This document shows, one piece after another, positions 6,848 to 32,404 of a stretch of DNA of 64,000 bases. Position numbers and translations under genes: made by a program. The DNA is from Roseivivax sediminis (GTDB lineage Bacteria; Pseudomonadota; Alphaproteobacteria; Rhodobacterales; Rhodobacteraceae): NCBI RefSeq assembly GCF_900112685.1, contig NZ_FOMS01000012.1:62001-126000 (forward strand), given 5' to 3'. How positions within the stretch are numbered: position 1 is the first letter of the stretch; each line of letters starts with the position of its first letter. The notes below the pieces were generated by a model. It was not told the origin of the DNA. It did not search any database and saw only the letters and a list, made by a program, of their open reading frames with translations.

Positions 6848-7825
6848 ATGCTCGATTTCACCAGAACCACCACGCTCGCCACTGCACTCGCCGCGCTTCT
6901 TGCCGGCGGCGCCGCGGCGCAGGAGCATACGCTCAACATCAACACCGCGCTGGCCGAGAGCGATCCGCTCTATGCCGGGCTCGAGGCGATGCGCGACAAC
7001 GTGGCCGAGGCGTCGGACGGGCGGCTGGCCATCGTGCTCTACCCCAATTCCCAGCTCGGCCCGGACGAGGACGTGCTCGAACAGGCGCGCGCCGGCGCGC
7101 CGGTCGCGGTGGTCGTGGACGGCGGTCGGCTGGCGGCCTACCAGGACGAATTCGGCGTCCTCGGCGCGCCGTTCCTCGCCTCGGGCTACGACGGCATCCG
7201 CAAGGTCGTGACCTCGGACATGTTCGAGGGCTGGGTCGACGAGATGGCCGAGGGGGCCGGCCTTCAGGTCCTCAGCTTCAACTGGTGGCAGGGCGAGCGG
7301 CACCTTCTGACCAACGTGCCGGTGGAGGAGCCCGCCGACCTCGACGGCATCCGCATGCGCACGCCGGGCGCCCCGGTCTGGACCGGCACGATCTCGGCCA
7401 TGGGCGCGACGCCGACCCCGCTGCCCTGGGGCGAGGTCTACTCGGCCCTCAGCTCCAACGTCATCGACGGGGCAGAGGCGCAGATGCCCGCCATCGTCGG
7501 TGCCAACCTGCAGGAGGTGATCAGCCACGTCACCAAGACCGGGCACATCAACCTGATCACCGGGCTCGTGACCTCGGCCGGCTGGTTCGACAGCCTGCCG
7601 GAGGATCTGCAGACCATCCTGCGCGACGAGGCGCTGGAGGCGGGTGACATCGCTTCCTACGGCACGCGCGACAGCCTCGCCGAGATCGAGGAGCAGCTGA
7701 CGGAGGCCGGCGTGACGGTGTCCGAAGTCGACACCGCGCCTTTCCGCGAGGCGACGGCGGGGGTCTACGACGATCTCGGCTACGGCGATCTGCGCGACGA
7801 GCTGCGGGCGATGGCCGAAGAGTGA
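6848..7825 (+). CDS. dctP: TRAP transporter substrate-binding protein (DctP type)
   Basis: A 325-residue periplasmic solute-binding protein of a tripartite ATP-independent transporter. Residues 1-24 are a Sec signal peptide ending AAA-QE. The mature part has the family layout: LYPNSQLGPDEDVLEQ, the LNGIRMRTPG-like segment here reading LDGIRMRTPG with the arginine that clamps the substrate carboxylate, and LSSNVIDGAEAQ. It starts two bases after the regulator stop with AAAGGGAGG upstream. Linkage to uxuA suggests a hexuronate, aldonate or similar sugar acid as ligand; the sequence alone does not fix it. Confidence 0.9.
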   Translation: MLDFTRTTTLATALAALLAGGAAAQEHTLNINTALAESDPLYAGLEAMRDNVAEASDGRLAIVLYPNSQLGPDEDVLEQARAGAPVAVVVDGGRLAAYQDEFGVLGAPFLASGYDGIRKVVTSDMFEGWVDEMAEGAGLQVLSFNWWQGERHLLTNVPVEEPADLDGIRMRTPGAPVWTGTISAMGATPTPLPWGEVYSALSSNVIDGAEAQMPAIVGANLQEVISHVTKTGHINLITGLVTSAGWFDSLPEDLQTILRDEALEAGDIASYGTRDSLAEIEEQLTEAGVTVSEVDTAPFREATAGVYDDLGYGDLRDELRAMAEE

Positions 7826-7839
7826 TGCACGGCGCCTTG

Positions 7840-7868
7840 CCCGCCGGCGCGGTGCGCGCGCCGGCGGG
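7840..7868 (+). other. Intercistronic hairpin between dctP and dctQ
   Basis: CCCGCCGGCGCG (7840-7851) pairs perfectly with CGCGCCGGCGGG (7857-7868) around a five-base loop. It begins 14 bases after the dctP stop and lies 66 bases before dctQ. There is no T-run. Such hairpins after a binding-protein gene usually protect its message and lower expression of the membrane subunits. Confidence 0.75.
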
Positions 7869-7934
7869 TCGCGTCGCGCCAAGGCGGCCGGCGGACCCTC
7901 TCCCCGCCGGCCGCACCCGAGGAGGATCTGACAC

Positions 7935-8441
7935 ATGCCACAGCTTTACCGCCGGGCGGAATTCGCCGTCGGCGCCACCATCCTTGCGGTGATCACCGGG
8001 CTCGTCTTCGTGGCGGCGGTCATGCGCTTCTTCGGCCAGCCGCTGATCTGGTCGGTGGACATGGCGCAGCTTCTGTTCATCTGGCTGTGCTTCATCGGCG
8101 CCACCCGCGCGCTGCGCGAACGCGCGCATCTGGGCGTGGACCTTCTGATCCGGTTTCTGCCCTTCGCCGCGCGGCGCTGGGTGGAGACGGTCATCGCGCT
8201 CGCCACGCTGGTCTTTCTCGGCATCCTCGCCTGGCAGGGCTACGGGCTGACGATGATGAACCTCGAACGCCAGTTCGGCGACAGCGGGCTGAGCTATGCC
8301 TGGGTCACCATCGCCGTGCCGGTCGGTTGCGTCCTGCTCTCGGTCGCCATCGTGAGGAACTTGGTGCAGTCCTGGCGCTCCGCCGACGAGCTGATCTTCG
8401 CCCGCAACCCGGTGCGCGAGACCGCGCCCTCGGAGCTTTGA
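7935..8441 (+). CDS. dctQ: TRAP transporter small membrane subunit (DctQ type)
   Basis: A 168-residue integral membrane protein with four predicted membrane segments, as expected for the DctQ subunit. The conserved WSVDMAQLLFIWLCFIGA segment and the following RERAHLGVDLL loop are diagnostic. It pairs with DctM to form the sodium-driven membrane complex that receives substrate from the binding protein. AGGAGG precedes the ATG and dctM begins one base after its stop. Confidence 0.92.
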   Translation: MPQLYRRAEFAVGATILAVITGLVFVAAVMRFFGQPLIWSVDMAQLLFIWLCFIGATRALRERAHLGVDLLIRFLPFAARRWVETVIALATLVFLGILAWQGYGLTMMNLERQFGDSGLSYAWVTIAVPVGCVLLSVAIVRNLVQSWRSADELIFARNPVRETAPSEL

Positions 8442-8442
8442 C

Positions 8443-9723
8443 ATGGGTCTGATCTCGGTCGTCTTCCTCGTGCTGCTGCTGATCGGCGCGCCGGTGGCCA
8501 TCGCCATCGGCATGGCCGGCTTCACCTTCTTCCTGACCTCTCCGGTCATGCCGCTGTCCATCGGCGTGCAGAAGATCGCGACGGTCAGCCAGAGCTTCCC
8601 GCTGCTCGCGGTGCCGTTCTTCGTGCTCGCCGGGCACCTGATGAACGAAAGCGACATCACCGACCGGCTCTTCCGGTTCTCGCGCGTCGCGGTGAGCTGG
8701 ATGACCGGCGGTCTGGCGCAGGTATCGATCATCCTGTCGACGCTGATGGGCGGGGTCAGCGGTTCGGCCGTCGCCGACGCCGCGATGCAGAGCCGGGTGG
8801 TCGGCCCGCAGATGATCGCGCAGGGTTACGCGCGCGGCTACACCGCCGCGGTGATCGCGCTCAGTTCGCTGATCACCGCCACGATTCCGCCGTCGATCGG
8901 GCTCATCCTCTACGGCTATGTCGGGCAGGTTTCCATCGGGCGGCTCTTCATGGCCGGGATCGTGCCGGGCGTGCTGATGATGCTGTTCCTGATGGTCGCG
9001 GCCTGGGCGGTGGCCAAGCGTCGCGGCTACGGTGTCGCCAGCCCCGAACCGCCCGAGCCCGGCGCGCTGGGCCGTGCCGCGTGGGACGCGAAATGGGCGC
9101 TTCTGTTTCCGGTGTTGCTGATCGTGTCGATTCGCGGCGGGGTCTTTACGCCGTCCGAGGTCGGCGCCTTCGCGGTGGTCTATGCGCTGCTTGTCGGCAC
9201 GGTCGGCCACCGCGTGATGACGTGGGAGAGGGTCACCCGCGCGTTCGCCTTCGCGCTGTCGGATATCGGGATGATCATGCTCATCATCCTGATGTCGGGG
9301 ATGCTCGGCTTTGCCATCATCTTCCTGCGCGTGCCGCAGGAGGTCGCGGACCTGCTGCTGGGCGGTCTTTCGAACCCCCTGGTGATTATAGCGGTGATCC
9401 TGATCGGGCTGTTCCTCGCCGGGCTCTTCATCGAAAGCACGATTCTGGTGCTGCTGCTGACACCGATCCTGGTGCCGGTGGTGCGTGACGTGGGCGTCGA
9501 CCCGGTGCATTTCGGCATCCTGATGATGAGCATCGTCACGCTCGGCGGCATGACACCGCCGGTGGGCGTGGCGATGTTCACCGTGTGCAGCCTGCTCGAT
9601 ACCCCGATCGAGGACTACATCCGCGACAGCCTGCCGTTCTTCGTGGCCATTGTCACGCTGATCCTGGTGTTGCTGTTCTTCCCGGGCCTCACGCTCTTCC
9701 TGCCGAACCTCATGTTCGGCTGA
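8443..9723 (+). CDS. dctM: TRAP transporter large membrane subunit (DctM type)
   Basis: A 426-residue, very hydrophobic protein, the transport channel of the TRAP system. The family motifs are visible: PLLAVPFFVLAGHLM, the GGVSGSAVADAA motif, TATIPPSIGLILYG and, near the end, LGGMTPPVGVAMF. Length is normal for DctM. It is the last gene of the gntR-dctPQM unit and ends nine bases from the convergent stop of the acyl-CoA ligase gene. Confidence 0.95.
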   Translation: MGLISVVFLVLLLIGAPVAIAIGMAGFTFFLTSPVMPLSIGVQKIATVSQSFPLLAVPFFVLAGHLMNESDITDRLFRFSRVAVSWMTGGLAQVSIILSTLMGGVSGSAVADAAMQSRVVGPQMIAQGYARGYTAAVIALSSLITATIPPSIGLILYGYVGQVSIGRLFMAGIVPGVLMMLFLMVAAWAVAKRRGYGVASPEPPEPGALGRAAWDAKWALLFPVLLIVSIRGGVFTPSEVGAFAVVYALLVGTVGHRVMTWERVTRAFAFALSDIGMIMLIILMSGMLGFAIIFLRVPQEVADLLLGGLSNPLVIIAVILIGLFLAGLFIESTILVLLLTPILVPVVRDVGVDPVHFGILMMSIVTLGGMTPPVGVAMFTVCSLLDTPIEDYIRDSLPFFVAIVTLILVLLFFPGLTLFLPNLMFG

Positions 9724-9732
9724 AGGCGCCGG

Positions 9733-11262
9733 TCAGCCCGCCGGCGTGTCGTCCAGAAGATCCGCAAAATGTGTCATGAGCGCGTGCTTGAGGATCTTGC
9801 CGGTCGATGCGGCGGGCAGGGCCTCCACCACGAAGATCCGCCCGGGGCGCTTGTAGCCTGCCAGCCGGTCGGCGGCAAATCGGGCCAGTTCCCCGGACGT
9901 GACCGCACCGGGGGCGACCGGCTGGCAAAAGGCGAGCACCTCCTCGTCGCCGTCCGCCGCGCGTCCGATCACCGCCGATTGAACCACGGCGGGATGGTCG
10001 TTCAACGCTGCCTCCACTTCCGGCGGGTAGACGTTGAAGCCGCCTCGGATGATCAACTCCTTGGCGCGGCCGACAATGTGCAGCCGGCCGCCTGCGTCGA
10101 TCCGGCCGAGATCGCCGGTGCGCATGAAGCCTTCGGGCGTGATCGCCGCCGCGGTCGCCTCGGGCGCGCGGTAATACCCCTTCATCACGTGCGGCCCGCG
10201 GGTCAGCACCTCGCCGACGTCTGGCTCCGCCCCGACGCTGTCGTCGAGCGTCACCTCCACCCCCGGCAGCGGTGGGCCGACGGAGATGTCGGGATCGCCG
10301 ATGGCGTTGCGCGTGCCGCTGACACCGGCGGTCGTCTCGGTCATGCCGTAGCCATTCTGGAGCGGCAGGCCGTAGAACGCCTCCGCCTTGCGCTTCCACG
10401 CAGGGTCCAGCGGTGCCGCCCCGGAGGAGACGTAGCGCAGCCGCGCCTCGGGGCCGAGCCTGTCGTGTCCGGCGGTCGCGGCATGCGCCATCAGGAGCGC
10501 GTGCATCTGCGGCACCCCGGGAAAGACCGTGACCCCGCGGCTCAGCGCCGCGAACAGCGCTTCTGCCGAGAAGCGCGCGGAAAACTCGACCGTGCAGCCG
10601 GTCAGCGCGGAGGCCATGAGCATGGAGGCGAGGCCGAAGACATGCGTCATCGGCAGCGCGCCGTAGACATGGTCATCCGGCGTGAGCGCGCGCAGATCGC
10701 GCGAGGCGCCGGCGGCAAAGGCCAGATTGGCGTGGCTCAGCATGACGCCCTTGGGCGTGCCGGTGGTGCCGGTGGTATAGAGCATCGCCGCCACCTGCTC
10801 CGGCCCCTCGGCGACCGGATCGGGCGAGGCCGCGCCGGTGCCGGGGGAGAGGCGCAGCTCCCCGGCGCGCAAGGGGCAGGGACGGGCGCCGGCGGCCTCG
10901 GCATGCGCGGCGGCATCGGTGGAGACGTGCGCGGCGTAGAGGATGCAGCGCGGATCGGCGTGCTGTGCCACCCGGTCGATCTCTGCCGCCGTCAGGCGCG
11001 CGTTGACCGGTACCGCAACGGCGTCGAGCCGGCTGGCTGCGAAGATCAGCGCGGCGAGCGCGAGGCAGTTCTCAGCGACGATCAGTACGCGGTCGCCGGG
11101 GCCGACGCCCTCGTCCGCCAGCATCCCGGCCGCTTCGGCGATGCAGGCGTCGTAGTCTCTCCAGCCTATCGCTGCGCCGCCGATATCGATGACGGCGCAG
11201 GCGTCCGGCCGGGCCGCGACATGCGGGGCGAGCATCTCGTGGATGCGGGTGATGTGGCTCAT
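9733..11262 (-). CDS. AMP-forming acyl-CoA ligase of the pim-like operon
   Basis: A 509-residue acyl/aryl-CoA synthetase that would activate a carboxylic acid with ATP and CoA. The AMP-binding signature is MLYTTGTTGTPKGVMLSH, followed by GYGMTETTAG, TGDLGRID, the hinge region KELIIRGGFNVYPPEVE and the C-terminal catalytic lysine in STGKILKHAL. The ATG at 11262 follows GGAGGGAGG; a start eight codons upstream would overlap this site. It is the distal gene of the run dctPQM-iclR-hydratase/dehydrogenase-thiolase-two dehydrogenases, in the position and role of PimA, which activates dicarboxylates such as pimelate. Confidence 0.85.
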   Translation of the reverse strand: MSHITRIHEMLAPHVAARPDACAVIDIGGAAIGWRDYDACIAEAAGMLADEGVGPGDRVLIVAENCLALAALIFAASRLDAVAVPVNARLTAAEIDRVAQHADPRCILYAAHVSTDAAAHAEAAGARPCPLRAGELRLSPGTGAASPDPVAEGPEQVAAMLYTTGTTGTPKGVMLSHANLAFAAGASRDLRALTPDDHVYGALPMTHVFGLASMLMASALTGCTVEFSARFSAEALFAALSRGVTVFPGVPQMHALLMAHAATAGHDRLGPEARLRYVSSGAAPLDPAWKRKAEAFYGLPLQNGYGMTETTAGVSGTRNAIGDPDISVGPPLPGVEVTLDDSVGAEPDVGEVLTRGPHVMKGYYRAPEATAAAITPEGFMRTGDLGRIDAGGRLHIVGRAKELIIRGGFNVYPPEVEAALNDHPAVVQSAVIGRAADGDEEVLAFCQPVAPGAVTSGELARFAADRLAGYKRPGRIFVVEALPAASTGKILKHALMTHFADLLDDTPAG

Positions 11263-22194: not shown

Positions 22195-23019
22195 ATGCAA
22201 ACAGTTGAGACCCGCCACGCGGTGCATCCCGATCACGTGCGGAGCATGGACACCACCGCGCTGCGCGACCATTTCCTCGCACCCGGGCTCTTTGCCGCCG
22301 GCGAGATCCGCCTGTGCTACACGCATTACGACCGCATGGTGATCGGCGGCGTGGTGCCGGACGGCAAGGCGCTGACGCTCGAGACGGTGGAGGAGACGCG
22401 CACCGCCACCTTCCTGGAGCGCCGGGAAATGGGGGTCGTGAATATCGGCGGCGCCGGGAGCGTGACCGCGGACGGCACCACGCACGAGATGAAGCGCGGC
22501 GACGTGCTTTACCTCGGCATGGGCACCGGGCCGGTGTCTTTCGCGGGACAGGGGCGGTTCTACGTCGCTTCCGCCCCCGCGCACCGCTCCTGTCCGACCG
22601 CTCTGGTGACGGTGGAGGGCGCCAGGGAGGTGACGATGGGCGCCGCGGAGACCTCCAACAAGCGCACCATCCGACAGTTCATCCATCCCGAGGTGATCGA
22701 CAGCTGCCAGTTGACGCTCGGCTACACCGCGCTCGAGGCGGGCTCGGTCTGGAACACGATACCCAGCCACGTCCACGATAGACGGATGGAGGCCTATCTC
22801 TACTGGGGCATGGACGACGAGGCGCGGGTTCTGCATCTCATGGGTGAGCCGCAGGAGACACGCCATCTGTTCGTGGCCAACGAACAGGCCGTGATCTCTC
22901 CGCCCTGGTCGATCCATTCCGGCGCGGGCATCGGGGAATACACCTTCATCTGGTGCATGGCCGGGGACAACAAGGATTTCACCGACATGGATTTCGTGCA
23001 GCCGAAGGAGATGAGATGA
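22195..23019 (+). CDS. kduI: 5-dehydro-4-deoxy-D-glucuronate isomerase
   Basis: A 274-residue cupin-fold isomerase that converts 5-keto-4-deoxyuronate (from unsaturated uronides released by pectin, hyaluronan or ulvan lyases) to 2,5-diketo-3-deoxygluconate. Full family length; the metal-binding cupin histidines lie in IPSHVHDRRMEAYLYW and the HSGAGIGEYTFIWCMAGDN segment. AAGGAG precedes the ATG at 22195. It overlaps kduD by four bases. No polysaccharide lyase is in the window, so the source of the uronide is elsewhere or external. Confidence 0.96.
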   Translation: MQTVETRHAVHPDHVRSMDTTALRDHFLAPGLFAAGEIRLCYTHYDRMVIGGVVPDGKALTLETVEETRTATFLERREMGVVNIGGAGSVTADGTTHEMKRGDVLYLGMGTGPVSFAGQGRFYVASAPAHRSCPTALVTVEGAREVTMGAAETSNKRTIRQFIHPEVIDSCQLTLGYTALEAGSVWNTIPSHVHDRRMEAYLYWGMDDEARVLHLMGEPQETRHLFVANEQAVISPPWSIHSGAGIGEYTFIWCMAGDNKDFTDMDFVQPKEMR

Positions 23020-23756
23020 CCGCCTTTTCGCTCGATGGACGAACCGCGCTGGTGACCGGCGCCAATACCGGGATCGGCCGGGCGATCGCGGTGGCTCTGG
23101 CCGGGGCGGGCGCGCGGGTCCTGTGCGCCGGCCGCCGCTCCTGCGAGGCGACGGTGGCCGAGATCGCCGATGCGGGCGGCGCGGCCGAGGACATGCGGCT
23201 CGATTTTTCCGACCCGATGGCAGCGACAGGCCTTTTCGCGGAGCGCGAGATCGACATTCTGGTCAACAATGCCGGGATCATCCGGCGCGAGGAGTCCGTC
23301 GACTTCTCCGAGGCCGACTGGGACGAGGTCATGGACGTGAACGCCAAGGCGGTGTTCTTCACCTGCCAGGCCTTCGCCAGGGCGGTGATGGCGCGCGGCG
23401 GCGCCGGCAAGATCGTCAACATCGCCTCCCTCCTGTCGTTCCAGGGCGGCATCCGGGTGCCGTCCTACACCGCGTCGAAACACGCGGTGGCGGGGCTGAC
23501 CAAGGTCTTGTGCAACGAATGGGCGGGGCAGGGCGTGAACGTGAACGCCATCGCACCGGGCTACATCGCCACCAACAACACCGAGGCGCTGCGGAGCGAT
23601 CCCGAGCGGTCGAAGGCGATCCTCGACCGCATTCCCGCCGGCCGCTGGGGTGCGGCCGAGGACATCGCGCAAACGGCGGTGTACCTGTCGGCGCCGGCTT
23701 CGGACTACGTGCACGGCGCGGTCATCAACGTCGACGGCGGTTGGCTGGCGCGCTGA
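23016..23756 (+). CDS. kduD: 2-keto-3-deoxygluconate 5-dehydrogenase
   Basis: A 246-residue short-chain dehydrogenase that reduces the KduI product to 2-keto-3-deoxygluconate (KDG) with NAD(P)H. The coenzyme motif TGANTGIG, NNAG, the catalytic serine in NIASLLSFQGG and YTASKHA with the Tyr-Lys pair are intact, and it ends in the usual VDGGWLAR. Its ATG overlaps the kduI stop by four bases. Its product is the same KDG made by UxuA at 4.8 kb. It ends convergently 119 bases from the Nit1C cluster. Confidence 0.93.
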   Translation: MTAFSLDGRTALVTGANTGIGRAIAVALAGAGARVLCAGRRSCEATVAEIADAGGAAEDMRLDFSDPMAATGLFAEREIDILVNNAGIIRREESVDFSEADWDEVMDVNAKAVFFTCQAFARAVMARGGAGKIVNIASLLSFQGGIRVPSYTASKHAVAGLTKVLCNEWAGQGVNVNAIAPGYIATNNTEALRSDPERSKAILDRIPAGRWGAAEDIAQTAVYLSAPASDYVHGAVINVDGGWLAR

Positions 23757-23875: not shown

Positions 23876-25141
23876 TCACGATGCGGCGCGGGCCTCGAGC
23901 TGTTCGGCGATGCGGGCGGCGAGGTAGCGGCTGTCCTCCTCGATCCCGAGGAAGCGGCCCGATCCCCAGGTGTTCAGCCAGCCGAGCCCGATGAAGCAGA
24001 GCCCCGGCACCGCCGTCACCCCGCGGTGGTACTCCGGCTTGCCGTGCGGATCGAAGACGTCCGCCTCGATCCAGCCGTAGTCGGGCCGGAAGCCGATCGC
24101 CCAGATAACCGAGGTGATGCCCGCCTCCGCCAGATCGATATCGGTCGCTTCCTCCGCGGGCTCCCAGACCTTCTCGAAGGGCGGCTCTTCCGGCGCGTCG
24201 ATGCCTTCGCGGGCGATATGGGCATCGATCTGCTCGCGGATCCCGAGATAGGAGCGATCGGCGTCGTCGAGGTTCTTCGCCAGATCGGGCAGGAAACCTG
24301 CGCGCGTGCCGTCCATGTCCGCGAGTGAGCCGTAGAGCGACAGCCCGTGATCGACGTGGAAGCGGCGCAGGTCGATCTCCTTGCCGCCATCGCGGCCGGA
24401 CATGTAGTGATTGGTCTGGCCGAGCGCCTTCTCCGGGTCCGGATGGGCGTCGATGGTCACGGAATAATGCCCGGCATCGTAGAGCCAGTCGGTCGCGTCG
24501 CGCCCGCGATAGTGCCGCGGGCTGCGCGGCGCGGGACCGACGGCCAGGTGCACGTCGCGCCCGTCGCGGATGCAATCCTCCATGATCTGCACGCCCGACT
24601 GGCCGGTGCCGACGATCAGCACGCCGCCCTCCGGCAACTGGCCGGGGTTGCGATAGTCCGCGGAATGGATCTGCGCGATCTCCGGCGACAGGCGCTGCGC
24701 GAACCCAGGCTCGATCGGCTTGTCGTAGCCGCCGGTGGCGATTACAACCGCCTCCGCCGTCCAGCGGCCATCCGAGGTCTCCACCACGAAGCCGCCGCCG
24801 AGGCGCTGCGCCACGCGCGTGACCTCGACGCCTTCGCGCAGGTCGGGCCGCACCCTTTCGGCGAAGGCGTCGAGATAGTCCGCGATCTCGTCCTTCGGCA
24901 TGAAACCGTGCGGGTCGGTGCCGCCATAGTCGCGGCCGTAGTGGAAATCCGGCAGGCGGCACTGCCAGTTCGGCGTGACGAGGCAAAAGCTGTCCCAGCG
25001 GTTGCGCTTCCAGGAGTGGAACGCGCGGTGCCGCTCGAAGATCACGCTGTCGATGCCATGCTGGCGCAGGCAATGGGCTGTGGACAGGCCGGCCTGCCCA
25101 CCGCCGACGATGGCGACGGGGATGTGCTGGGGGCGGGTCAT
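23876..25141 (-). CDS. nitH: Nit1C flavin-dependent oxidoreductase (MSMEG_0569 family)
   Basis: A 421-residue flavoprotein with two Rossmann motifs, GGGQAG near residue 13 for FAD and GTGQSG near residue 178 for NAD(P)H, and the flavin-monooxygenase-type layout (the late ATGGYD and IGLGWLNTWGSG segments). It matches the MSMEG_0569 family that is found almost only in Nit1C clusters. The ATG overlaps the nitG stop by four bases. Its reaction is unknown; an oxygenase or an oxidase acting on the product of the cluster is possible. It is the last gene of the leftward operon. Confidence 0.88.
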   Translation of the reverse strand: MTRPQHIPVAIVGGGQAGLSTAHCLRQHGIDSVIFERHRAFHSWKRNRWDSFCLVTPNWQCRLPDFHYGRDYGGTDPHGFMPKDEIADYLDAFAERVRPDLREGVEVTRVAQRLGGGFVVETSDGRWTAEAVVIATGGYDKPIEPGFAQRLSPEIAQIHSADYRNPGQLPEGGVLIVGTGQSGVQIMEDCIRDGRDVHLAVGPAPRSPRHYRGRDATDWLYDAGHYSVTIDAHPDPEKALGQTNHYMSGRDGGKEIDLRRFHVDHGLSLYGSLADMDGTRAGFLPDLAKNLDDADRSYLGIREQIDAHIAREGIDAPEEPPFEKVWEPAEEATDIDLAEAGITSVIWAIGFRPDYGWIEADVFDPHGKPEYHRGVTAVPGLCFIGLGWLNTWGSGRFLGIEEDSRYLAARIAEQLEARAAS

Positions 25142-25437
25142 GTGCGGGGTCCTCCGGTGGAGAGGGTCAGGCAGAGGATCTCGGCCCCGGGGTCGTCCAG
25201 GCGGTCGAGCCGCGTCTCGATCCGGCCGAGTTCCTCCATCGCCGCGCTGCAGGCGAAGCCGTAGCTTTGCCGCACCCGCTCCGACGCGCGTTCGAGAGCG
25301 GTGCGGGCGCGGCGCCGGAATTCGGGCGCCGGGTAGCTCCGGCCCGGCTCGAACAGTTCGGCCACCACGGAGGAAGGAGAATACAGCGCCTCTTCGGCCC
25401 CGTCGGGCCAGCGCACGGTCCAGTATGTCTCAGGCAA
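25138..25437 (-). CDS. nitG: Nit1C small protein (MSMEG_0570 family)
   Basis: A 99-residue soluble protein of the MSMEG_0570 family, described in databases as nitrogen-starvation response proteins, with no known activity. It opens with YWTVRWPDGAEEALYSPSSVV, has a central FRRRARTALERASERVR helix and a C-terminal strand. It overlaps nitF by eight bases and nitH by four, so it is tightly coupled. It may be a partner or chaperone for a neighbour; that is guesswork. Confidence 0.82.
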   Translation of the reverse strand: MPETYWTVRWPDGAEEALYSPSSVVAELFEPGRSYPAPEFRRRARTALERASERVRQSYGFACSAAMEELGRIETRLDRLDDPGAEILCLTLSTGGPRT

Positions 25438-26410
25438 CGCGGCCTCCGAGGTCGAGATAGGGGGTTGCGGCGTGATCCCAGAAAAGCGCCGTGTCGGTAC
25501 CGTCGGTCAGCGCCACCTTGCTGCCATGCGTGACGTGGCCGATGGCGCGGGCGTCGATGCCGCGCGCATCGAAACGGGCCGAGAGGGCGGCGGCGTCTTC
25601 TGGCGTCACCGACAGCAGGAAACCGAAGCTGGGGAAGCTGCGCAGCCAGCGCGTCACCGGCACGCCGCCGGGCGGCGCCAGCGCGGACACGTCCAGAACC
25701 ATCCCCACGCCGGAGCATTCCGCCAGCATCAGCGCCGTTCCGGCGATCCCGCCCTGGCTGATGTCCTTGCCGGCGCGCACGAGCCCCGCCTCGGCCAGTT
25801 CGGGCAGGAGCGCGAGATCGGCGCGGAGCCGTGCCGCCGGTGCCTCCCCGGCGGCGAAGAAATTGTCGAAGCTGCGATACGCGCCGCGCCGGTCGATGGC
25901 GGCGATCAACACGTCGCCCGGGGTCGCGTCGAAACTGGTGATGACCCGTGTCGCCCGGCCGAAGACGGAGGCGGCGAGGCCCAGTTCCCCGGCGGCGAAA
26001 TTCGTGTGCCCGCCGACGAGCGGTACGCCGTAGGCGGCCGACGCGTCCCGCAGACCTTGCAGGAGCGGTGCGGCAGCCTCGGCGCCCGGCGCCCAGACCT
26101 GGCTGAGGATGGCGCTGGCGCGGCCGCCCATCGCGGCGATGTCCGACAGGTTGACCATGACCGCGCACCAGCCCGCGAACCACGGATCGTCCGCGACGAA
26201 GCCGGGGATGAACCCTTCGCCGGCGAGAAGGTCGAAGCCCCCCTCGCGCGGCAGCACCGCGGCGTCGTCGCCGGGCGCCCCGGCACTGCCCGCGTCGAGT
26301 CCGAGCGCGCGGACTGCCGACCCGATTGCCAGCTTGGAGCGGATCGCGGGATGCGCGCGCAGCTCTTCGGCAAGCGCGGCCAGGGGCGACAGAGCCGTGT
26401 TCACGTTCAT
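25430..26410 (-). CDS. nitF: Nit1C AIR-synthase-like protein (sll0787 family)
   Basis: A 326-residue member of the PurM/SelD/HypE/ThiL ATP-binding fold. An N-terminal GDDAAVL motif (about residue 47), a GGHTNF segment and the C-terminal domain with GKDISQGGIAGTALMLAE are visible. Proteins of this fold phosphorylate carboxylates, amides or thio-compounds through acyl-phosphates; the substrate here is unknown. It is specific to Nit1C clusters. The ATG at 26410 overlaps the nitE stop by four bases; a longer frame upstream is not protein-like. Confidence 0.85.
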   Translation of the reverse strand: MNVNTALSPLAALAEELRAHPAIRSKLAIGSAVRALGLDAGSAGAPGDDAAVLPREGGFDLLAGEGFIPGFVADDPWFAGWCAVMVNLSDIAAMGGRASAILSQVWAPGAEAAAPLLQGLRDASAAYGVPLVGGHTNFAAGELGLAASVFGRATRVITSFDATPGDVLIAAIDRRGAYRSFDNFFAAGEAPAARLRADLALLPELAEAGLVRAGKDISQGGIAGTALMLAECSGVGMVLDVSALAPPGGVPVTRWLRSFPSFGFLLSVTPEDAAALSARFDARGIDARAIGHVTHGSKVALTDGTDTALFWDHAATPYLDLGGRVA

Positions 26411-26961
26411 CGCGCCGCCTCTTCGCGCGGCGGGCAGCGGTGATACCAGCCGGCGACCGGGTCGGGGCAGGGCGGGTAGGCCGCGAGGTCTGCCTGCATC
26501 CGCATGTGGGGTACGCCGTGCAGGGACACCTCCTGGATGTCCTGCCAGTGGAGGCGGCGGAACATCGGCACGTTCTGCATCTGCACATGCGCCAGGAACG
26601 TCGTGCAGCCGCGCGCCCGCGCGGTGCGGACAGCGAGGCGGATAAGTTCCACCCCCAGCCGGCTGATGGCGCGGAAATCGCGGTCGACCGCGAGGCGCGA
26701 GCCCCACCAGAGGCCGGGCGCGTCCTCGTGGATGCGCACGGTGCCGACGATCTCGTCGGCCTCGCTGGCATAGGTCGACAGCGCGACGAGATGCGTGGCC
26801 ACAAGGTCGATCTCGTCGCGGTCGTGGCCCTCGAAGATGCGCTGCTCGGTCACGAAGACGCGGTGACGCAGCGCCGCCGCGCCGCGCGCCTCGAACGGGG
26901 TCGAGGCGGCGCGGATGTAGTAGCCCGGGCACTGGAACTGGCGCGGTTCGACCTCGATCAT
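26407..26961 (-). CDS. nitE: Nit1C GNAT N-acetyltransferase (MSMEG_0567 family)
   Basis: A 184-residue GNAT-fold acetyltransferase. The N-terminal FRHRVFVTEQ-like segment (LRHRVFVTEQRIF), the VGTVRIHEDAPGLWWGSRLAVDRDFR strands and the acetyl-CoA loop around SRLGVELIRLAV are typical. The MSMEG_0567/Sll0786 family is confined to Nit1C clusters; its acyl acceptor is unknown. It is coupled to nitD and nitF by four-base overlaps. Confidence 0.85.
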   Translation of the reverse strand: MIEVEPRQFQCPGYYIRAASTPFEARGAAALRHRVFVTEQRIFEGHDRDEIDLVATHLVALSTYASEADEIVGTVRIHEDAPGLWWGSRLAVDRDFRAISRLGVELIRLAVRTARARGCTTFLAHVQMQNVPMFRRLHWQDIQEVSLHGVPHMRMQADLAAYPPCPDPVAGWYHRCPPREEAAR

Positions 26962-28082
26962 GCCGCGCCCTCCGCCGGCACGCGCAGCGTCTCGTAGGAG
27001 GCAAGGGCCGAACAGGCGCCGCAGCGGCCGCAGCCGGCCTTGATGTCCTCCGACCGGATGCCGGCGCGCACGATCATCTCGCCCAGGGGGCGCAGGAGCG
27101 AGGCCATGAACTCGGGCGTCGGCGCCGGGTGGCTTTCCAGCGGCGTGCCGGAGATCGGCACGAACGGCACCACGAAGGGATAGACGCCGAGCGCGCAGAG
27201 CCTTTCGGCGGTCGACAGGATCGCCTCGCGCGTGTCGCCGAGCCCGGCGAGGATGTAGGTCGAGACCTGCCCGCGGCCGAACACGCGCACCGCCGCCTCG
27301 AAGCTGCTCCAGTACTTCTCGAGCGGCACCGACGCCTTGCCCGGCATGATGCGCTGGCGGACCTCGGGCGTCACCGCCTCCAGATGCATGCCGAGGCTGT
27401 CGATCCCGGCTTCGGCCATGCGGGCGTGCCAGGCATCGTCCTCGGGCGGCTCCACCTGCGCCTGAAGCGGCAGGTCGACGGCGGCGCGGATGGCGCGGGC
27501 GCTGTCGACCATCACCGCCGCGCCCCGGTCCTTGCCGCGGGGCGTGCCGGTGGTCAGCACCATGTGCCTGACACCGTCAAGCTCCACCGCCGCCTTCGCG
27601 ACCTCGGCAAGCTGCGCGGGCGTCTTGTGCGCGACGGTGCGGCCGGCGGCGAGCGACTGGCCGATGGCGCAGAACTGGCATGTCTTCTTGCGGCTTTCGT
27701 AGCGGATGCAGGTCTGCAGCACGGTGGTCGCCAGCACGTCGCGCGAATGGAGCGCGGCGATATGGCTATAGGGGATGCCGTCCGCGGTGCGCAGCGCGTA
27801 GAACTTCGCCCGCGTGGGGAAGCGAACCGTCGCGACCTCGCGCCCCTCGCAGGTCACGCGGGCCGCGCCGGTGTCGTCGGGCGCATCGACGAGGTAGGGG
27901 CTGTCGAAGCTGGGCGCGGTGTGCACAGGGATCATCACGGTTCTCTCGCCGATGGTGATCGCCTTGTGGTCCGACGGGCCCGCGCCGCCGCGCCGGCTGT
28001 CGTGCCCGGCACGCGGATCGACGAGCCGCATCCCCCGCGTCTGCAATTCGTTGATGAGGCCGGAGTGCGAAAGTTCAGACAT
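26958..28082 (-). CDS. nitD: Nit1C radical SAM protein (MSMEG_0568 family)
   Basis: A 374-residue radical SAM enzyme. The cluster-binding cysteines are C125, C135 and C138, giving the spacing CX9CX2C rather than the canonical CX3CX2[10 protein letters not shown] follows as the SAM-binding region and the TIM-barrel strands continue to about residue 320. A second cysteine set, CGRCGAC (C351, C354, C357), sits near the C-terminus and could bind another cluster or substrate. The overall fold is biotin-synthase-like. Its reaction is unknown. It overlaps nitC by eight bases and nitE by four. Confidence 0.88.
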
Positions 28083-29049
28083 CCTGCTCTTCCTCCGTAG
28101 CTGGAAGGGGATCGGGAAATGTAGTCGCGTGCCTCGGCCGGGCGGGGCGCGTGTCGTGCGACAGGCTCAGAAGCTCGGGCCGGGCGTAATGGCCGACGCT
28201 GTCCATCATCCGCTTGCGCTTGGCGATCAGGCGCATGTCGAGATCGGCGATCAGGATGCCTTCGTTCTGCGTCAGCGGCTCGGCCAGGTGCCGGCCCTCG
28301 GGGGAGACGATGCAGGTCATGCAGCCATCGCGAAGGCCCTTCTGAAGCGCGGGGTCGGGGTGGATCGCGGCGATCTGCTCTTCGCTCAGCCAGCCGGTGG
28401 CGTTGACCACGAAGCAGCCCGCCTCCAGCGCGTGGTGGCGCATGGTCACCTCGATCTGCTCGCCGAAGACCGGGCCGACGAGCGATCCGGGGAACTGCGC
28501 GGCGTGGATCTCTTCGTGCTGGGTCATCAGCGCGTAGCGGGCGAGGGGATTGTAATGCTCCCAGCAGGCCAGCGCGCCGACGCGGCCGACGCGGGTCTGG
28601 ACCACCGAAAGCCCGGCGCCGTCGCCTTGGCCCCAGACCATGCGCTCATGGTAGGTCGGCGTGATCTTGCGACGCCTCAGCGCCAGCATGCCGTCCGCGT
28701 CGAAGATGAGCTGCGTGTTGTAGAGCGATCCGTGATCGCGTTCGTTCACGCCAAGCACCACCACCACGCCGCGCTTGGCGCAGGCATCGGCCACCGCCTG
28801 AGTCTCGGGCGAGGGGACGACCACGGCCTCTGCCATCAGCTCCAGATGCGGCTTGCCCTGCTGCACGGGCGGCAGCACGAAGGAGAAGTAGGGATAGTAG
28901 GGCACGAAGGTCTCGGGGAAGACGATGAACTCGGCCCCCTTGTCGCCGGCTTCCGCGATGGCGTTCAGCACACGCTCCATTGTGCCGGCGCGGCCCGAAA
29001 GGTCGGGCGCGATCTGGACGGCGGCGGCGCGGACGGTGTCGGTTCTCAT
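28075..29049 (-). CDS. nitC: Nit1C nitrilase
   Basis: A 324-residue nitrilase of the Nit6803 class, cleaving a nitrile to carboxylate and ammonia. The catalytic triad is complete: E46 in [16 protein letters not shown]128 in [19 protein letters not shown] and C162 in [11 protein letters not shown]. The ATG at 29049 fits the conserved N-terminus; the frame is open 14 codons further. In other bacteria this cluster is required for growth on cyanide as nitrogen source, so cyanide or a cyanide-derived nitrile is the suspected substrate. It lies 73 bases after nitB and overlaps nitD. Confidence 0.93.
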
Positions 29050-29122
29050 TCTCGTGGCCTTTCCGGGGAAGGGAATGGCCCGGGCCGCCAACGCGCGGCG
29101 GCCCGGCGACGGGCGGCGGCTC

Positions 29123-29605
29123 TCACACCGTCCAGGTGTCGAGGATCACGGCGTCGGCCTTCTTGTGCAGCAGGATGCAGTCGAGCACGTCCTGCGGCGC
29201 GATCGGCGTGATCCCGGGCAACAGCGACGGCTCCCCGTGGCCATAGAGCGCCTGCAACGCGAAGCGGCAGGCATAGATCTTGCCGCCTTCGCCCATGAAC
29301 TTATTGAGGTTGGCGGCGAAATTCTGGTGGCCGGGAAACGCCTCGTCCCCGAGCGTCGGAAACCCGCGCTGGATGCCCAGCGTCACGCCCGGCCCATAGA
29401 GCAGGATCGACGTCTCGTAGCCCTTCCGGTTGAGCCGGATGGCGTTGAGGATGTTCACGAGCCCGATGGACCCCTCGAAGGCCACCGTGTGGAAGGTGAC
29501 GAGCGCCTTCTCCCCTCCCTCGGCCTTCACGTCCTCGAAGACCTTGTCCTCGTAGTCGACGAAGTAGTCGCCGTCCTTGTGCGCTTCCGCGGTGACTGCA
29601 GGCAT
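29123..29605 (-). CDS. nitB: Nit1C leader protein (MSMEG_0572 family)
   Basis: A 160-residue protein of the MSMEG_0572/Sll0783 family, first gene of the Nit1C operon and of unknown activity. It contains [30 protein letters not shown] and a C-terminal [10 protein letters not shown], reading like a DsrE-type alpha/beta fold, although the family assignment rests mainly on context and wording. CAGGAG lies eleven bases upstream of the ATG. A 258-base spacer separates it from the divergent MocR gene. Confidence 0.87.
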
Positions 29606-29678
29606 CTTCCACTCCTGTTGGTTACGTGAGTCGGATGGAGCCTGCTGCGATTGATCCGATCAAATGGCAGTGTAATAT

Positions 29679-29806
29679 GCATACAATAATTGCCCCGGTT
29701 TGATGGCTGCAGGCGTTACAAACGCATAAAGCGCGTGCATAAGCTGCCTTGAGGAGCAGAACGTAAAACCAAGCGGAGGGCATGGAGCATTCAATTTTGC
29801 ATACAA
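29679..29806. promoter_or_regulatory. GCATA-type operator array between nitB and mocR gene
   Basis: The 258-base divergent spacer has four same-orientation sites: GCATACAA at 29679-29686 and again at 29799-29806 (exactly 120 bases apart), and GCATAA at 29724-29729 and 29737-29742 (13 bases apart). The last copy sits inside the near-palindrome CAATTTTGCATACAAATTG (29792-29810). MocR-type regulators commonly bind direct repeats, so these are candidate sites for the adjacent regulator. The local AT content is much higher than in flanking genes. Confidence 0.5.
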
Positions 29807-29863
29807 ATTGGGTTCAATCGGCCATGCGGGTCACGTAGAACCTGACAACACGGGGGACGATTC

Positions 29864-31231
29864 GTGACGGACTGGATACCGGGGACGCTCGAGCGCGGCG
29901 CGCCGCGCTACATCGCCATCGCGGACGCCATCGCCCGCGACATAAGGGACGGCCGGCTATCGGACGGGATGCGCCTGCCGCCGCAGCGCCAGCTTGCCGA
30001 AGCGCTGGGCATCGACTTCACCACCGTCTCGCGCGCCTACGCGGAGGCGCGGGCGCGAGGACACGTCGAGGGGCATGTCGGCCGCGGCACCTTCGTGCGC
30101 GGCAGCGTCGTGTCGACCCGGCCCGATCCCGCGCGGACGGGTGAGGCGGATTTCTCCATGAACATGCCACCCGAGCCGGCGGACCCCGCCCTTTGCCGTC
30201 GGATGCAGGAGGGGCTGGGCTACGTGTCGGCAAACCTCGTCGCGCTGCTGCGCTACCAGGCGCCGCTGGGCTCGGACCGCGACAAGGCCGCGGCGTCGAG
30301 CTGGCTGTCCATGCGCGGCATGGTGCCGAGCCTCGAACGGGTGGCGGTCACGCCCGGCGCGCACGCGACCATGGCCGCGATCCTCTCCATCGTCACCCGC
30401 CCCGGCGATACCGTGCTGTGCGAGGCCGTCACCTATCCCGGCTTTCGCAACGTCGCGGGCCGTTTCGGCCTGCGGCTCGTCGGGATCGAGATGGATGATT
30501 GCGGCATTGTGCCCGAGGCGCTGGAGGCGGAGATCCGGGCGCATGGGCCGAAGGCGCTTTATCTCAACCCGACACTCCAGAACCCCACGACGCTGACCAT
30601 GCCGCCGGCGCGGCGCGAGGCTGTGGCGGAGATCCTGCTGCGCCATGGCCTGCGTCTGATCGAGGACGACGCCTACGGCTTCATCCCGGTCAAGGCGCCG
30701 GCGCCCATCGCGCTCGCCGCGCCGGAGCTGACCTGGCATATCGGCGGGCTGGCCAAGTGCATCGGGGCGGGGCTGCGCCTCGCCTTCACCATCGCACCGA
30801 CGCCCGATTGCGCGCATCGGCTGTTCCAGGCGATCCGGGCGCTGTCGGTGATGCCCTCGCCCCTGTCGATGGCGCTGACAACCCAGTGGATCGAGGACGG
30901 CACCGCCGACGGCATCCGCCGCTTCATCCGCGCCGAAAGCGCCGCGCGGCAGGACATCGCGGCGGAGGTCCTGAGCGCCCTGCGGTTCCGCGCCGCGGAC
31001 CACGCCTTCAACCTCTGGCTCGACCTGCCCGAAGGCGTCAGCCGCGCGGAGGTGGTGGCGCGCATGACGCGCCGGCCGCTCGGCCTGATGCCCTCGGACA
31101 CCTTCACCGTGGAGGGGCCGCCGGCCGAACGGCTGCGCGTCTGTCTCGGCGGTCCGATCGGGCGCGAGGCGCTGCGCGAGAACCTGCGCCACCTCGTGAA
31201 CGCCTGTGGCGCGCCCGCCTTCATCGGGTAG
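29864..31231 (+). CDS. MocR/PdxR-type regulator (GntR HTH fused to aminotransferase fold)
   Basis: A 455-residue chimera: a GntR winged helix (about residues 14-80, LPPQRQLAEALGIDFTTVSRAYAEARARG) joined to a fold-type I aminotransferase domain. The PLP lysine is K298 in GGLAKCIGAGLRLAF and the tyrosine-rich YLNPTLQNPTT segment is the usual PLP contact. Such proteins sense a small amino compound or PLP adduct. The start codon is GTG. It is divergent from nitB and so is the obvious regulator of the Nit1C cluster; its effector is unknown. It ends nine bases from the convergent M20 gene. Confidence 0.9.
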   Translation: MTDWIPGTLERGAPRYIAIADAIARDIRDGRLSDGMRLPPQRQLAEALGIDFTTVSRAYAEARARGHVEGHVGRGTFVRGSVVSTRPDPARTGEADFSMNMPPEPADPALCRRMQEGLGYVSANLVALLRYQAPLGSDRDKAAASSWLSMRGMVPSLERVAVTPGAHATMAAILSIVTRPGDTVLCEAVTYPGFRNVAGRFGLRLVGIEMDDCGIVPEALEAEIRAHGPKALYLNPTLQNPTTLTMPPARREAVAEILLRHGLRLIEDDAYGFIPVKAPAPIALAAPELTWHIGGLAKCIGAGLRLAFTIAPTPDCAHRLFQAIRALSVMPSPLSMALTTQWIEDGTADGIRRFIRAESAARQDIAAEVLSALRFRAADHAFNLWLDLPEGVSRAEVVARMTRRPLGLMPSDTFTVEGPPAERLRVCLGGPIGREALRENLRHLVNACGAPAFIG

Positions 31232-31240
31232 GGGTGGCCC

Positions 31241-32404
31241 TCAGCGGGCCGGCAGGCGCCGCTCCACGATCTCGGCCCACCACGAACAGCCGGCGGGAAT
31301 CGTCTCGTCGTTGAAGTCGTAATCGGGCGAATGCACCGACGCGGTGTCGCCGTTGCCGACGAGGATGTAGGCGCCGGGCCGCTCTTCCAGCATGAAGGCG
31401 AAATCCTCGCCGCCCATGACGAGGTCCGCATCCTCGCAGCTTCCCGCGACAGCCTGCGCCACCTCGGCGGCAAAGGCGGTCTGTTCCTCGGCGTTCACCA
31501 TCACCGGGTAGTTGCGGATGTAATCGACGCTCGCCCGCGCGCCGAAGGCTTCCGCCACGGAGGTGCAGATCGCGGTGAGCCGCGTTTCGGCCAGGTCGCG
31601 CACCTCGGGCGACAGGGTGCGCACGGTGCCCTTCAGGTGGACCTTCTGCGGGATCACGTTGAAGGCCGAGGACGAGGTCCGGAACGACGTGACCGACACC
31701 ACCACTTGCGCCACCGGGTCGGCGTTGCGGCTGGCGATGGTCTGGAGCGCGGTGACGATCTGCGCGGCGACGACCGTGGTGTCGATGGTCTCGTGCGGCT
31801 TGGCGGCATGGCCGCCGCGGCCCTCCACCTCGACCTCGAAGAGGTCGGTGGCGGCGAAGAAGGGACCGGGGCGGATCTGGAACTGGCCCACCGGCACGCC
31901 GGGCCAGTTGTGCATGCCGTAGACCTCCTCGATCCCCCAGCGGTCCATCATCCCGTCGCGGCACATCTCGCGCCCGCCGCCGCCGCCCTCCTCGGCCGGC
32001 TGGAAGATCACCACGACGGTGCCGTCGAAATTGCGCGTCTCGCACAGGTACTGCGCCGCGCCCAGCAGCATCGCCGTGTGTCCGTCATGGCCGCAGGCAT
32101 GCATCGCCCCGTCGACCGTGGAGGCATGATCGGCCCCCGTGGTCTCGTGGATCGGCAGCGCGTCCATGTCCGCGCGCAACCCGATCGTCCGCCCCGAGGC
32201 GGTGGAGCGCCCTCGGATCACCCCGACGACGCCGGTGCGCCCGATGCCGGTCGTGACCTCGTCGCAGCCGAAGGCGCGCAGCTTCTCGGCCACGATGCCG
32301 GCGGTGCGGTGCGTCTCGAACAGGATCTCGGGGTGCCGGTGCAGGTCGCGGCGCCAGGCGGTGATGTCGCCGTGCAGTTCGGCAAAGCGGTTCTTGACCG
32401 GCAT
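31241..32404 (-). CDS. M20D-family amidohydrolase (hippurate hydrolase-like)
   Basis: A 387-residue zinc amidohydrolase. Metal ligands are visible in ADMDALPI, HACGHDGHT, EEGGGGG and the late GGEDFAFM; the dimerisation domain includes GGHAAKPHETID. Proteins of this group remove N-acyl groups from amino acids or hydrolyse indole-acetyl and benzoyl amides. The ATG at 32404 gives the family's usual start (FAELHGDITAWRRDLHRHPE); a much longer open frame upstream overlaps the divergent argE region and is not used. It is divergent from argE with 148 bases between starts. Confidence 0.9.
   Translation of the reverse strand: MPVKNRFAELHGDITAWRRDLHRHPEILFETHRTAGIVAEKLRAFGCDEVTTGIGRTGVVGVIRGRSTASGRTIGLRADMDALPIHETTGADHASTVDGAMHACGHDGHTAMLLGAAQYLCETRNFDGTVVVIFQPAEEGGGGGREMCRDGMMDRWGIEEVYGMHNWPGVPVGQFQIRPGPFFAATDLFEVEVEGRGGHAAKPHETIDTTVVAAQIVTALQTIASRNADPVAQVVVSVTSFRTSSSAFNVIPQKVHLKGTVRTLSPEVRDLAETRLTAICTSVAEAFGARASVDYIRNYPVMVNAEEQTAFAAEVAQAVAGSCEDADLVMGGEDFAFMLEERPGAYILVGNGDTASVHSPDYDFNDETIPAGCSWWAEIVERRLPAR

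Follow-up and report, generated by a model that had tools for sequence, protein, structure and literature searches.

Introduction

What controls a Nit1C gene cluster, and which signal and chemistry does the cluster serve? The question is raised by a 64,000-nucleotide stretch of the Roseivivax sediminis genome (contig NZ_FOMS01000012.1, positions 62,001 to 126,000), referred to below as the window, in which a whole Nit1C operon, nitB-H (23876-29605, minus strand, gene order B-C-D-E-F-G-H), is faced by a divergent gene for a MocR-type regulator, for which we propose the name nitR. A 2018 paper reportedly links Nit1C to growth on cyanide. The cluster was described in 2005 as a set of seven genes without a known pathway, and its authors wrote that none of the Nit1C genes had been connected with a known transformation (Podar et al., PMC1199592). 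No later paper settling the roles of the non-nitrilase Nit1C proteins was found. In Pseudomonas, a cyanide-containing residue induces NitB-H (PMC5333837), and a NitC mutant cannot assimilate cyanide (PMC8567248).

The Nit1C cluster itself is already known; what is new here is its pairing with a MocR and the predicted operator. Our literature search found no published report of such a pairing: the papers naming both Nit1C and MocR concern, in the text available, the Pseudomonas strain whose MocR lies at the cio oxidase genes, or its genus, and the word "nitrilase" is absent from the main text of the MocR regulon survey PMC5320631, its supplement being outside the scope. We put a probability of about 60% on the reading that the window holds a cyanide-responsive Nit1C operon under a dedicated NitR that binds pyridoxal phosphate (PLP), taken loosely and with the acceptor step described below excluded. 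As to its parts, NitR very probably controls the nitB-H operon, judging from comparative genomics, and a link of the signal to cyanide is slightly favored. Comparative evidence supports the proposed regulatory part well; it does not do so for the chemistry.

Pairing of NitR with Nit1C

The regulator, the two candidate sites and the first gene of the operon occupy the following positions.

29864-31231, plus strand: nitR (mocR), GTG start, MocR-type GntR/aminotransferase regulator with PLP lysine K298 and R425
29790-29819, minus strand: nitR-proximal operator-like site, TTGTATG at 29800-29806 and ATTGAA nearby
29650-29689, minus strand: nitB-proximal predicted operator, core ATTGTATG at 29680-29687
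29123-29605, minus strand: nitB, 160 residues, TIGR04044, 277 bits (cut-off 110)

NitR has the composition of a MocR protein, with a GntR winged helix-turn-helix (PF00392) and an aminotransferase domain of fold type I (PF00155) carrying the PLP lysine K298. An earlier note on this DNA had reported a MocR divergent from Nit1C, and the pairing turns out to be widespread, with conserved sites between the genes. NitD scored above its cut-off in 19 of the 394 genomes of the same family that were searched, and in all 19 a MocR gene is divergent from nitB (20 loci counting the window); kinship among genomes was left as is in all counts. A set of named loci was obtained from 87 relatives with a NitB match, 80 of which were kept. 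Among its 48 alphaproteobacterial loci (L047-L094), a MocR match lies beside nitB in 47, partial in L063, the exception being L053. The pairing reaches gammaproteobacteria (L101, L102, L115, L116, L126) and a Solirubrobacterales bin (L118). Locus L119, from an Acetobacter bin, has its MocR gene upstream of nitB on the same strand. NitR is present in 54 of the 73 named loci with 2.2 kb of sequence 5' of nitB. In L053 (1-4352), a Poseidonocella Nit1C with no MocR match upstream, the region resembles mobile-element debris by eye.

In Pseudomonadales the pairing was followed from both sides. A MocR search of 293 genomes gave 13 matches of at least 315 bits, the next match scoring 255.5 bits; all 13 adjoin a complete Nit1C (12 newly fetched loci and L126), as does none of the eight inspected matches of at most 256 bits. 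Of 286 genomes, 16 have NitB above its cut-off, and the 13 that carry NitR divergently are the same 13 as in the MocR search. The remaining three (NitA-like, L240-L242) have a divergent PAS/sigma-54 activator instead; beside nitB in the window stands the MocR and not such an activator. Near L233, L234 and L238, which belong to the eight lower-scoring MocR loci, a SelD-like gene was seen by eye.

Predicted operator sites

Including that of the window, 73 intergenic regions were collected and reduced to 63 by removing 10 exact duplicates. The statistics use 57 alphaproteobacterial regions (55 for alignment, after removal of near-duplicates) and 18 regions from other groups, six of the 63 and 12 from Pseudomonadales; L119, with its MocR on the strand of nitB, and L053 lie outside the set. 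The start of mocR in each region was placed by extrapolation from alignments, and the motif words were picked by eye from the sequences before being tested against shuffles.

Read towards nitB, ATTGTATG occurs in all 57 distinct alphaproteobacterial regions, against an average of 0.5 and at most 3 regions in dinucleotide shuffles; 54 of the 57 have a copy 78 to 106 nucleotides before the nitB start. The strongest alignment columns read ATTGTATG-N-AT-ATTG-N-AC-TG-N3-ATTGA, the later part being less strict, and ATTGTATG-N3-ATTG is found exactly in 31 of the 57. Of the 18 regions outside the alphaproteobacteria, 13 contain the direct repeat TTGAT[TAC]G-N3-5-TTGATTG (shuffled mean 0, maximum 0). 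By eye, both types appear to be the same kind of site, with putative ATTG-type half-sites spaced 11 to 12 bp. The whole assembly contains ATTGTATGNAT a single time, at the nit promoter; since the reversed control pattern is equally found once, this count shows only that a second exact copy is absent. Podar et al. were unable to find conserved upstream sites (PMC1199592), in contrast to the conserved predicted operator defined here.

Phylogeny and ligand pocket of NitR

The best NCBIfam match of the window MocR is EhuR (NF052286). This favors an explanation in which the MocR is of the ectoine type (EnuR/EhuR), stands beside Nit1C by chance and senses N-acetyl-diaminobutyrate, with the downstream amidohydrolase acting in the same pathway; the gene at 31241-32404 indeed matches DoeB2, below the cut-off (330 vs 550 bits). 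However, the EhuR score, 396.8 bits, falls short of the cut-off of 480, and in a MocR tree of 100 rows, built by a quick method with long-branch warnings, 19 EnuR rows form one group (support 98) apart from a NitR clade (support 99) of 62 Nit1C-linked MocRs and 13 others. The amidohydrolase is also not among the three neighbor families present in at least seven of 56 Nit1C loci, as surveyed with a crude gene caller and with at least one duplicate contig included (L044, L093), and NitR tracks Nit1C across classes. On score and tree position we therefore set aside NitR as an EnuR/EhuR ectoine regulator, and consider the chance-neighbor explanation very improbable. NitR and EnuR/EhuR share the MocR architecture, the PLP lysine, the pocket positions Asn244, Phe417 and Arg429, and ATTG-type operators (PMC8739950); they differ in that NitR is a separate clade below the family cut-off, has other target genes and has direct-repeat sites, the EnuR consensus being the inverted repeat ATTGTN6ACAAT (PMC8739950).

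The EnuR row L145, which matches the published protein in its PLP peptide, served to number the pocket positions. K298, N240 and R425, the last at the position of EnuR R429, are kept in all 62 NitR rows and F414 in 61, and the 12 Pseudomonadales NitR all agree at the pocket positions. Position 100 is Asn in 62/62 rows, against Leu (16), Ser (2) and Met (1) in the EnuR rows, a difference of little weight against the ectoine-type explanation because Asn is common there in other MocRs (6/8 and 3/8 rows of two other groups) and the column may be misaligned: Ser104, reported as strictly or highly conserved in EnuR (PMC8739950), does not show as such in our alignment. The arginine R425 in turn says little about the ligand, since all the MocR groups compared retain it. 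The full conservation of K298 and R425 does not establish the earlier note's proposal of an amino compound as the signal, and as aligned here the pocket residues single out no ligand for NitR.

DUF983 as a second candidate target

Ten of the 13 other members of the NitR clade nest in the alphaproteobacterial NitR group (support 100), and their genomes are outside the 26 with any NitD match in the family search. In one of them (L165, genome G361), nitB and a 31-residue fragment of nitH remain next to the MocR gene; in each of the other nine, a DUF983 gene is divergent from it (Pfam PF06170 verified in L166 and L167, similarity in the rest). The simplest reading of this tree is that Nit1C was lost and NitR retained. 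L165 itself (7473-11123) looks like a decaying Nit1C, with nitC-nitG unmatched within 17 kb and a DUF983 gene that has an operator-like site.

DUF983 is also among the neighbor families of Nit1C (8 of 56 alphaproteobacterial loci). Operator-like words lie within 130 nucleotides of DUF983 in five of nine Nit1C-linked loci (shuffled mean 0.1) and in eight of ten NitR-linked loci without intact Nit1C (shuffled mean 0.15); L065, a duplicate of L031, is not counted. Neither of the two DUF983 genes in the R. sediminis genome has such words in the stretch inspected (the frame of L244 was not resolved). NitR appears, on this comparison, to control a DUF983 membrane protein as well in some relatives. 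Such a regulon would make sense as a cyanide response, because cyanide attacks cytochrome oxidase, to whose operons one paper links DUF983. The scheme of cytochrome oxidase operons in that paper includes DUF983 proteins, in which it detects COX4-like signatures (PMC4013037).

These loci bear on a further explanation, namely that NitR and Nit1C only travel together as a unit, the sites binding another factor or serving NitR autoregulation alone. NitR persists beside DUF983 without Nit1C, and the window cluster resembles the one in Salipiger (L048; NitB 96%, NitC 86%) more closely than the one in G357, a genome of its own genus (L042/L091; NitB 87%, NitC 77%), which suggests that the whole regulator-operon unit may move horizontally. 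Co-transfer alone is nevertheless improbable in our view, given two separate sites, one of them near-fixed in its distance from nitB, and the similar words that stay close to DUF983 where Nit1C is lost or decayed.

Genes of the operon and their co-inheritance

Behind nitB, the operon continues with six genes.

28075-29049, minus strand: nitC, ATG start, Nit6803-type nitrilase, TIGR04048, 546 bits (cut-off 503)
26958-28082, minus strand: nitD, radical S-adenosylmethionine (SAM) protein, TIGR04043, 580 bits (cut-off 304), 8-base overlap with nitC
26407-26961, minus strand: nitE, GNAT acyltransferase, TIGR04045, 212 bits (cut-off 68), 4-base overlap with nitD
25430-26410, minus strand: nitF, related to aminoimidazole ribonucleotide (AIR) synthase, ThiL-like, TIGR04049, 411 bits (cut-off 321), 4-base overlap with nitE
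25138-25437, minus strand: nitG, 99 residues, TTG start, TIGR04042, 111 bits (cut-off 80), 8-base overlap with nitF
23876-25141, minus strand: nitH, flavin adenine dinucleotide (FAD)-dependent oxidoreductase, TIGR04046, 576 bits (cut-off 498), 4-base overlap with nitG

All seven families score above their NCBIfam cut-offs in one cluster, which agrees with its earlier designation as Nit1C; the seven genes, their coordinates and their order were likewise as first described. A gap of 73 bases separates nitB from nitC. The six genes said to be joined by 4- or 8-base overlaps are nitC-nitH, chained by five overlaps (C/D 8, D/E 4, E/F 4, F/G 8, G/H 4 bases), which suggests only coupling of their expression, less than the stoichiometric co-expression that the earlier note took to be implied. 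The nitrilase triad reported before is complete in NitC, a member of the Nit6803 subfamily: E46, K128 and C162 are each kept in at least 97% of 87 alignment rows, C162 in 87/87. In a PDB sequence search, the nearest solved structure to NitC is 3wuy, titled Nitrilase (E 1.3e-143) and presumably the Synechocystis enzyme, with cyanide dihydratases ranking behind it (about 1e-48 to 1e-49).

A synteny comparison, proposed at the time as a check, indicates that the seven genes are inherited together. They are all present in 71 of the 73 named loci with at least 6.5 kb 3' of nitB, in canonical order and strand in 66, and in 16/16 family loci with room. Gene order differs in five named loci (one cyanobacterium, four Verrucomicrobiota), and two are incomplete (L063, L111). 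One incomplete family genome (G212, 62% complete) has two separate Nit1C copies, on contigs 53 and 114 (L043 and L046). In a Candidatus Endobugula bin (L101, 11360-12478), a stop codon lies inside the NitD range and the NitC match is partial, possibly by decay or sequencing error.

The non-nitrilase proteins

NitB is 69-96% identical to the window protein over 33 other rows from several phyla, and its C113 is present in 87/87 rows. Its predicted model (confidence score pLDDT 71.7) matches DsrE/DsrF-type structures first (3mc3, Foldseek E 7.3e-6, probability 1.00), so that on the predicted model only it has a DsrE fold; Podar et al. had tentatively proposed a YchN-like fold (PMC1199592). Neither NitB nor NitG has a credible PDB match by sequence search. 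The predicted fold and the invariant cysteine liken NitB to the DsrE/DsrF/Tus sulfur-relay proteins, although no sequence similarity to them was detected.

NitD has two cysteine clusters, C125-x9-C135-x2-C138 and, near the C-terminus, C351-x2-C354-x2-C357, all six residues being cysteine in 86/86 rows. The three-cysteine motif, PF04055 and a partial TIM barrel fold mark it as a radical SAM protein, and it passes the NCBIfam "variant_rSAM" domain model (176 bits, cut-off 125). Lipoyl and biotin synthases are the nearest solved folds of its model (pLDDT 91.1), with TM-scores below 0.5 by query length, and the sequence profile gives weak matches only, to ThiH, RlmN and biotin synthase (E 0.015-0.07). 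Unlike these synthases, NitD has CX9CX2C in place of the usual radical SAM motif CX3CX2C. The CX9CX2C spacing is also that of Elp3. A split Elp3 made of NitD and NitE was rejected, since the fold matches listed for NitD are lipoyl/biotin synthases and other radical SAM enzymes, and NitE leads to SACOL1063-type acetyltransferases, its best PDB matches (E 3e-10). NitE, a GNAT protein, also matches FeeM in part, above the Pfam threshold (39 vs 27 bits, residues 88-144).

The best PDB matches of NitF by sequence are ThiL, and its next NCBIfam relative, methanogenesis marker 2, is below cut-off (175 vs 365 bits). HypE has a catalytic terminal cysteine and SelD an N-terminal cysteine or selenocysteine. 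NitF has no invariant cysteine, only C82 (cysteine in 67/82 rows) and C232 (54/82), and with ThiL as its best match a HypE-like cyanide-forming or SelD-like function was discarded. NitG keeps C63 in 75/75 rows and NitH C61 in 85/85; L101, L121 and several other rows were excluded from or trimmed in some of these alignments. An extra gene lies 3' of nitH in 22 of the 56 alphaproteobacterial loci, at a median distance of 15 bases; the only copy classified (L083, 15734-16594) is LnmK/Pnap_2097-like, with TIGR04099 above cut-off. The view that the cluster is a small biosynthetic or salvage pathway has gained circumstantial support from this gene, from the kinship of NitD with lipoyl and biotin synthases and from the DsrE-type fold of NitB.

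Proposed mechanism and signal

NitR would bind ATTG-type direct repeats about one helical turn apart between nitR and nitB and, as co-distribution and conserved sites suggest, control nitB-H and probably also itself. A signal, most likely from cyanide or nitrile exposure, may reach NitR via the PLP-lysine aldimine. NitC would hydrolyze a nitrile, for instance the cyanohydrin of cyanide and a keto acid, and free ammonium, as published for the Pseudomonas homolog. For the non-nitrilase proteins (NitB, D, E, F, G and H), the likeliest role would be to make, activate or recycle a carbonyl or thiol acceptor that captures cyanide ahead of NitC, a proposal that we regard as tentative and rather doubtful; the DsrE-type fold of NitB, the lipoyl/biotin-synthase-like NitD and the invariant cysteines would point to sulfur chemistry in this step. 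In some relatives, the same NitR may also control the DUF983 protein.

Nit1C could instead serve the salvage of natural nitriles or amino-nitriles under nitrogen starvation, with cyanide growth as a by-product and NitR sensing a nitrogen-rich amino compound. Synechocystis sll0783 and its neighbors are up on nitrogen starvation, and a role in the use of unusual nitriles was proposed for them (PMC3901256), msmeg_0567 is upregulated when nitrogen is limiting (PMC4617892), the Nit1C proteins of P. pseudoalcaligenes, including NitC, are also induced by 3-cyanoalanine (PMC8567248), and NitR keeps the PLP lysine and R425. The Pseudomonas induction and mutant data cited in the Introduction speak against it, and a nitrogen-salvage function does not readily explain why NitR follows DUF983 as well; overall, we judge this explanation unlikely, if by no means far-fetched.

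Several findings weigh against a cyanide-responsive operon under a dedicated NitR. The operon of Synechocystis is tied to nitrogen starvation (PMC3901256). The published regulator of Pseudomonas Nit1C is NitA, divergent and of sigma-54 type, and the published Pseudomonas MocR (BN5_1899, listed among other genes in PMC5333837) adjoins the cio oxidase cluster, which it was suggested to repress (PMC11049912, PMC8567248), so the type of Nit1C regulator is not fixed. NitR is missing from 19 of the 73 named loci, L053 and 18 of Bacteroidota, Verrucomicrobiota and Cyanobacteria. NitR-clade proteins occur without Nit1C, and because of the ten nested relatives the label "Nit1C-linked" costs five changes on the tree, at least three of them forced. 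No sigma-70-like promoter was recognized in 29600-29870, and the position of the sites therefore cannot tell repression from activation. On the side of the chemistry, the confidence of the NitB model is moderate, and sequence comparison of NitB with E. coli TusD gave nothing useful and left C113 unaligned with C78, the persulfide-carrying cysteine of TusD.

The window operon has the same seven families as the Nit1C of Podar et al. and of Pseudomonas, the proteobacterial order B-C-D-E-F-G-H and a divergent upstream regulator, and differs from Pseudomonas nit1C in having the MocR-type NitR where sigma-54 NitA is found. The cio MocR of P. pseudoalcaligenes is also tied to cyanide physiology but adjoins cio and not nit1C (PMC8567248). 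In G591 and in G609, the one MocR match listed lies more than 60 kb from every cyd gene found.

A bolder version, which we consider a long shot, makes NitR a direct cyanide sensor in which cyanide would convert the PLP-lysine aldimine into an aminonitrile, with vitamin B6 as the sensing group; the regulon would couple Nit1C with protection of the terminal oxidase via DUF983 in some relatives, and NitB, NitD, NitG and NitH would form a cysteine-based sulfur relay building a cyanide acceptor whose nitrile adduct NitC cleaves. The NitR ligand would name the signal of the pathway or an intermediate, and the regulator with its predicted operator offers an experimental route. The conserved cysteines of NitB, NitD, NitG and NitH, together with the DUF983 link, lead to testable hypotheses on how marine bacteria may capture cyanide and protect their oxidases.

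Neighboring genes

No extra gene was seen directly behind nitH in the window. The third neighbor family of the survey (10/56 loci) has a representative that looks like a wrong reading frame. In the window, nitH is adjoined by kduI and kduD (22195-23756), genes of uronate breakdown that apparently have no relation to Nit1C.

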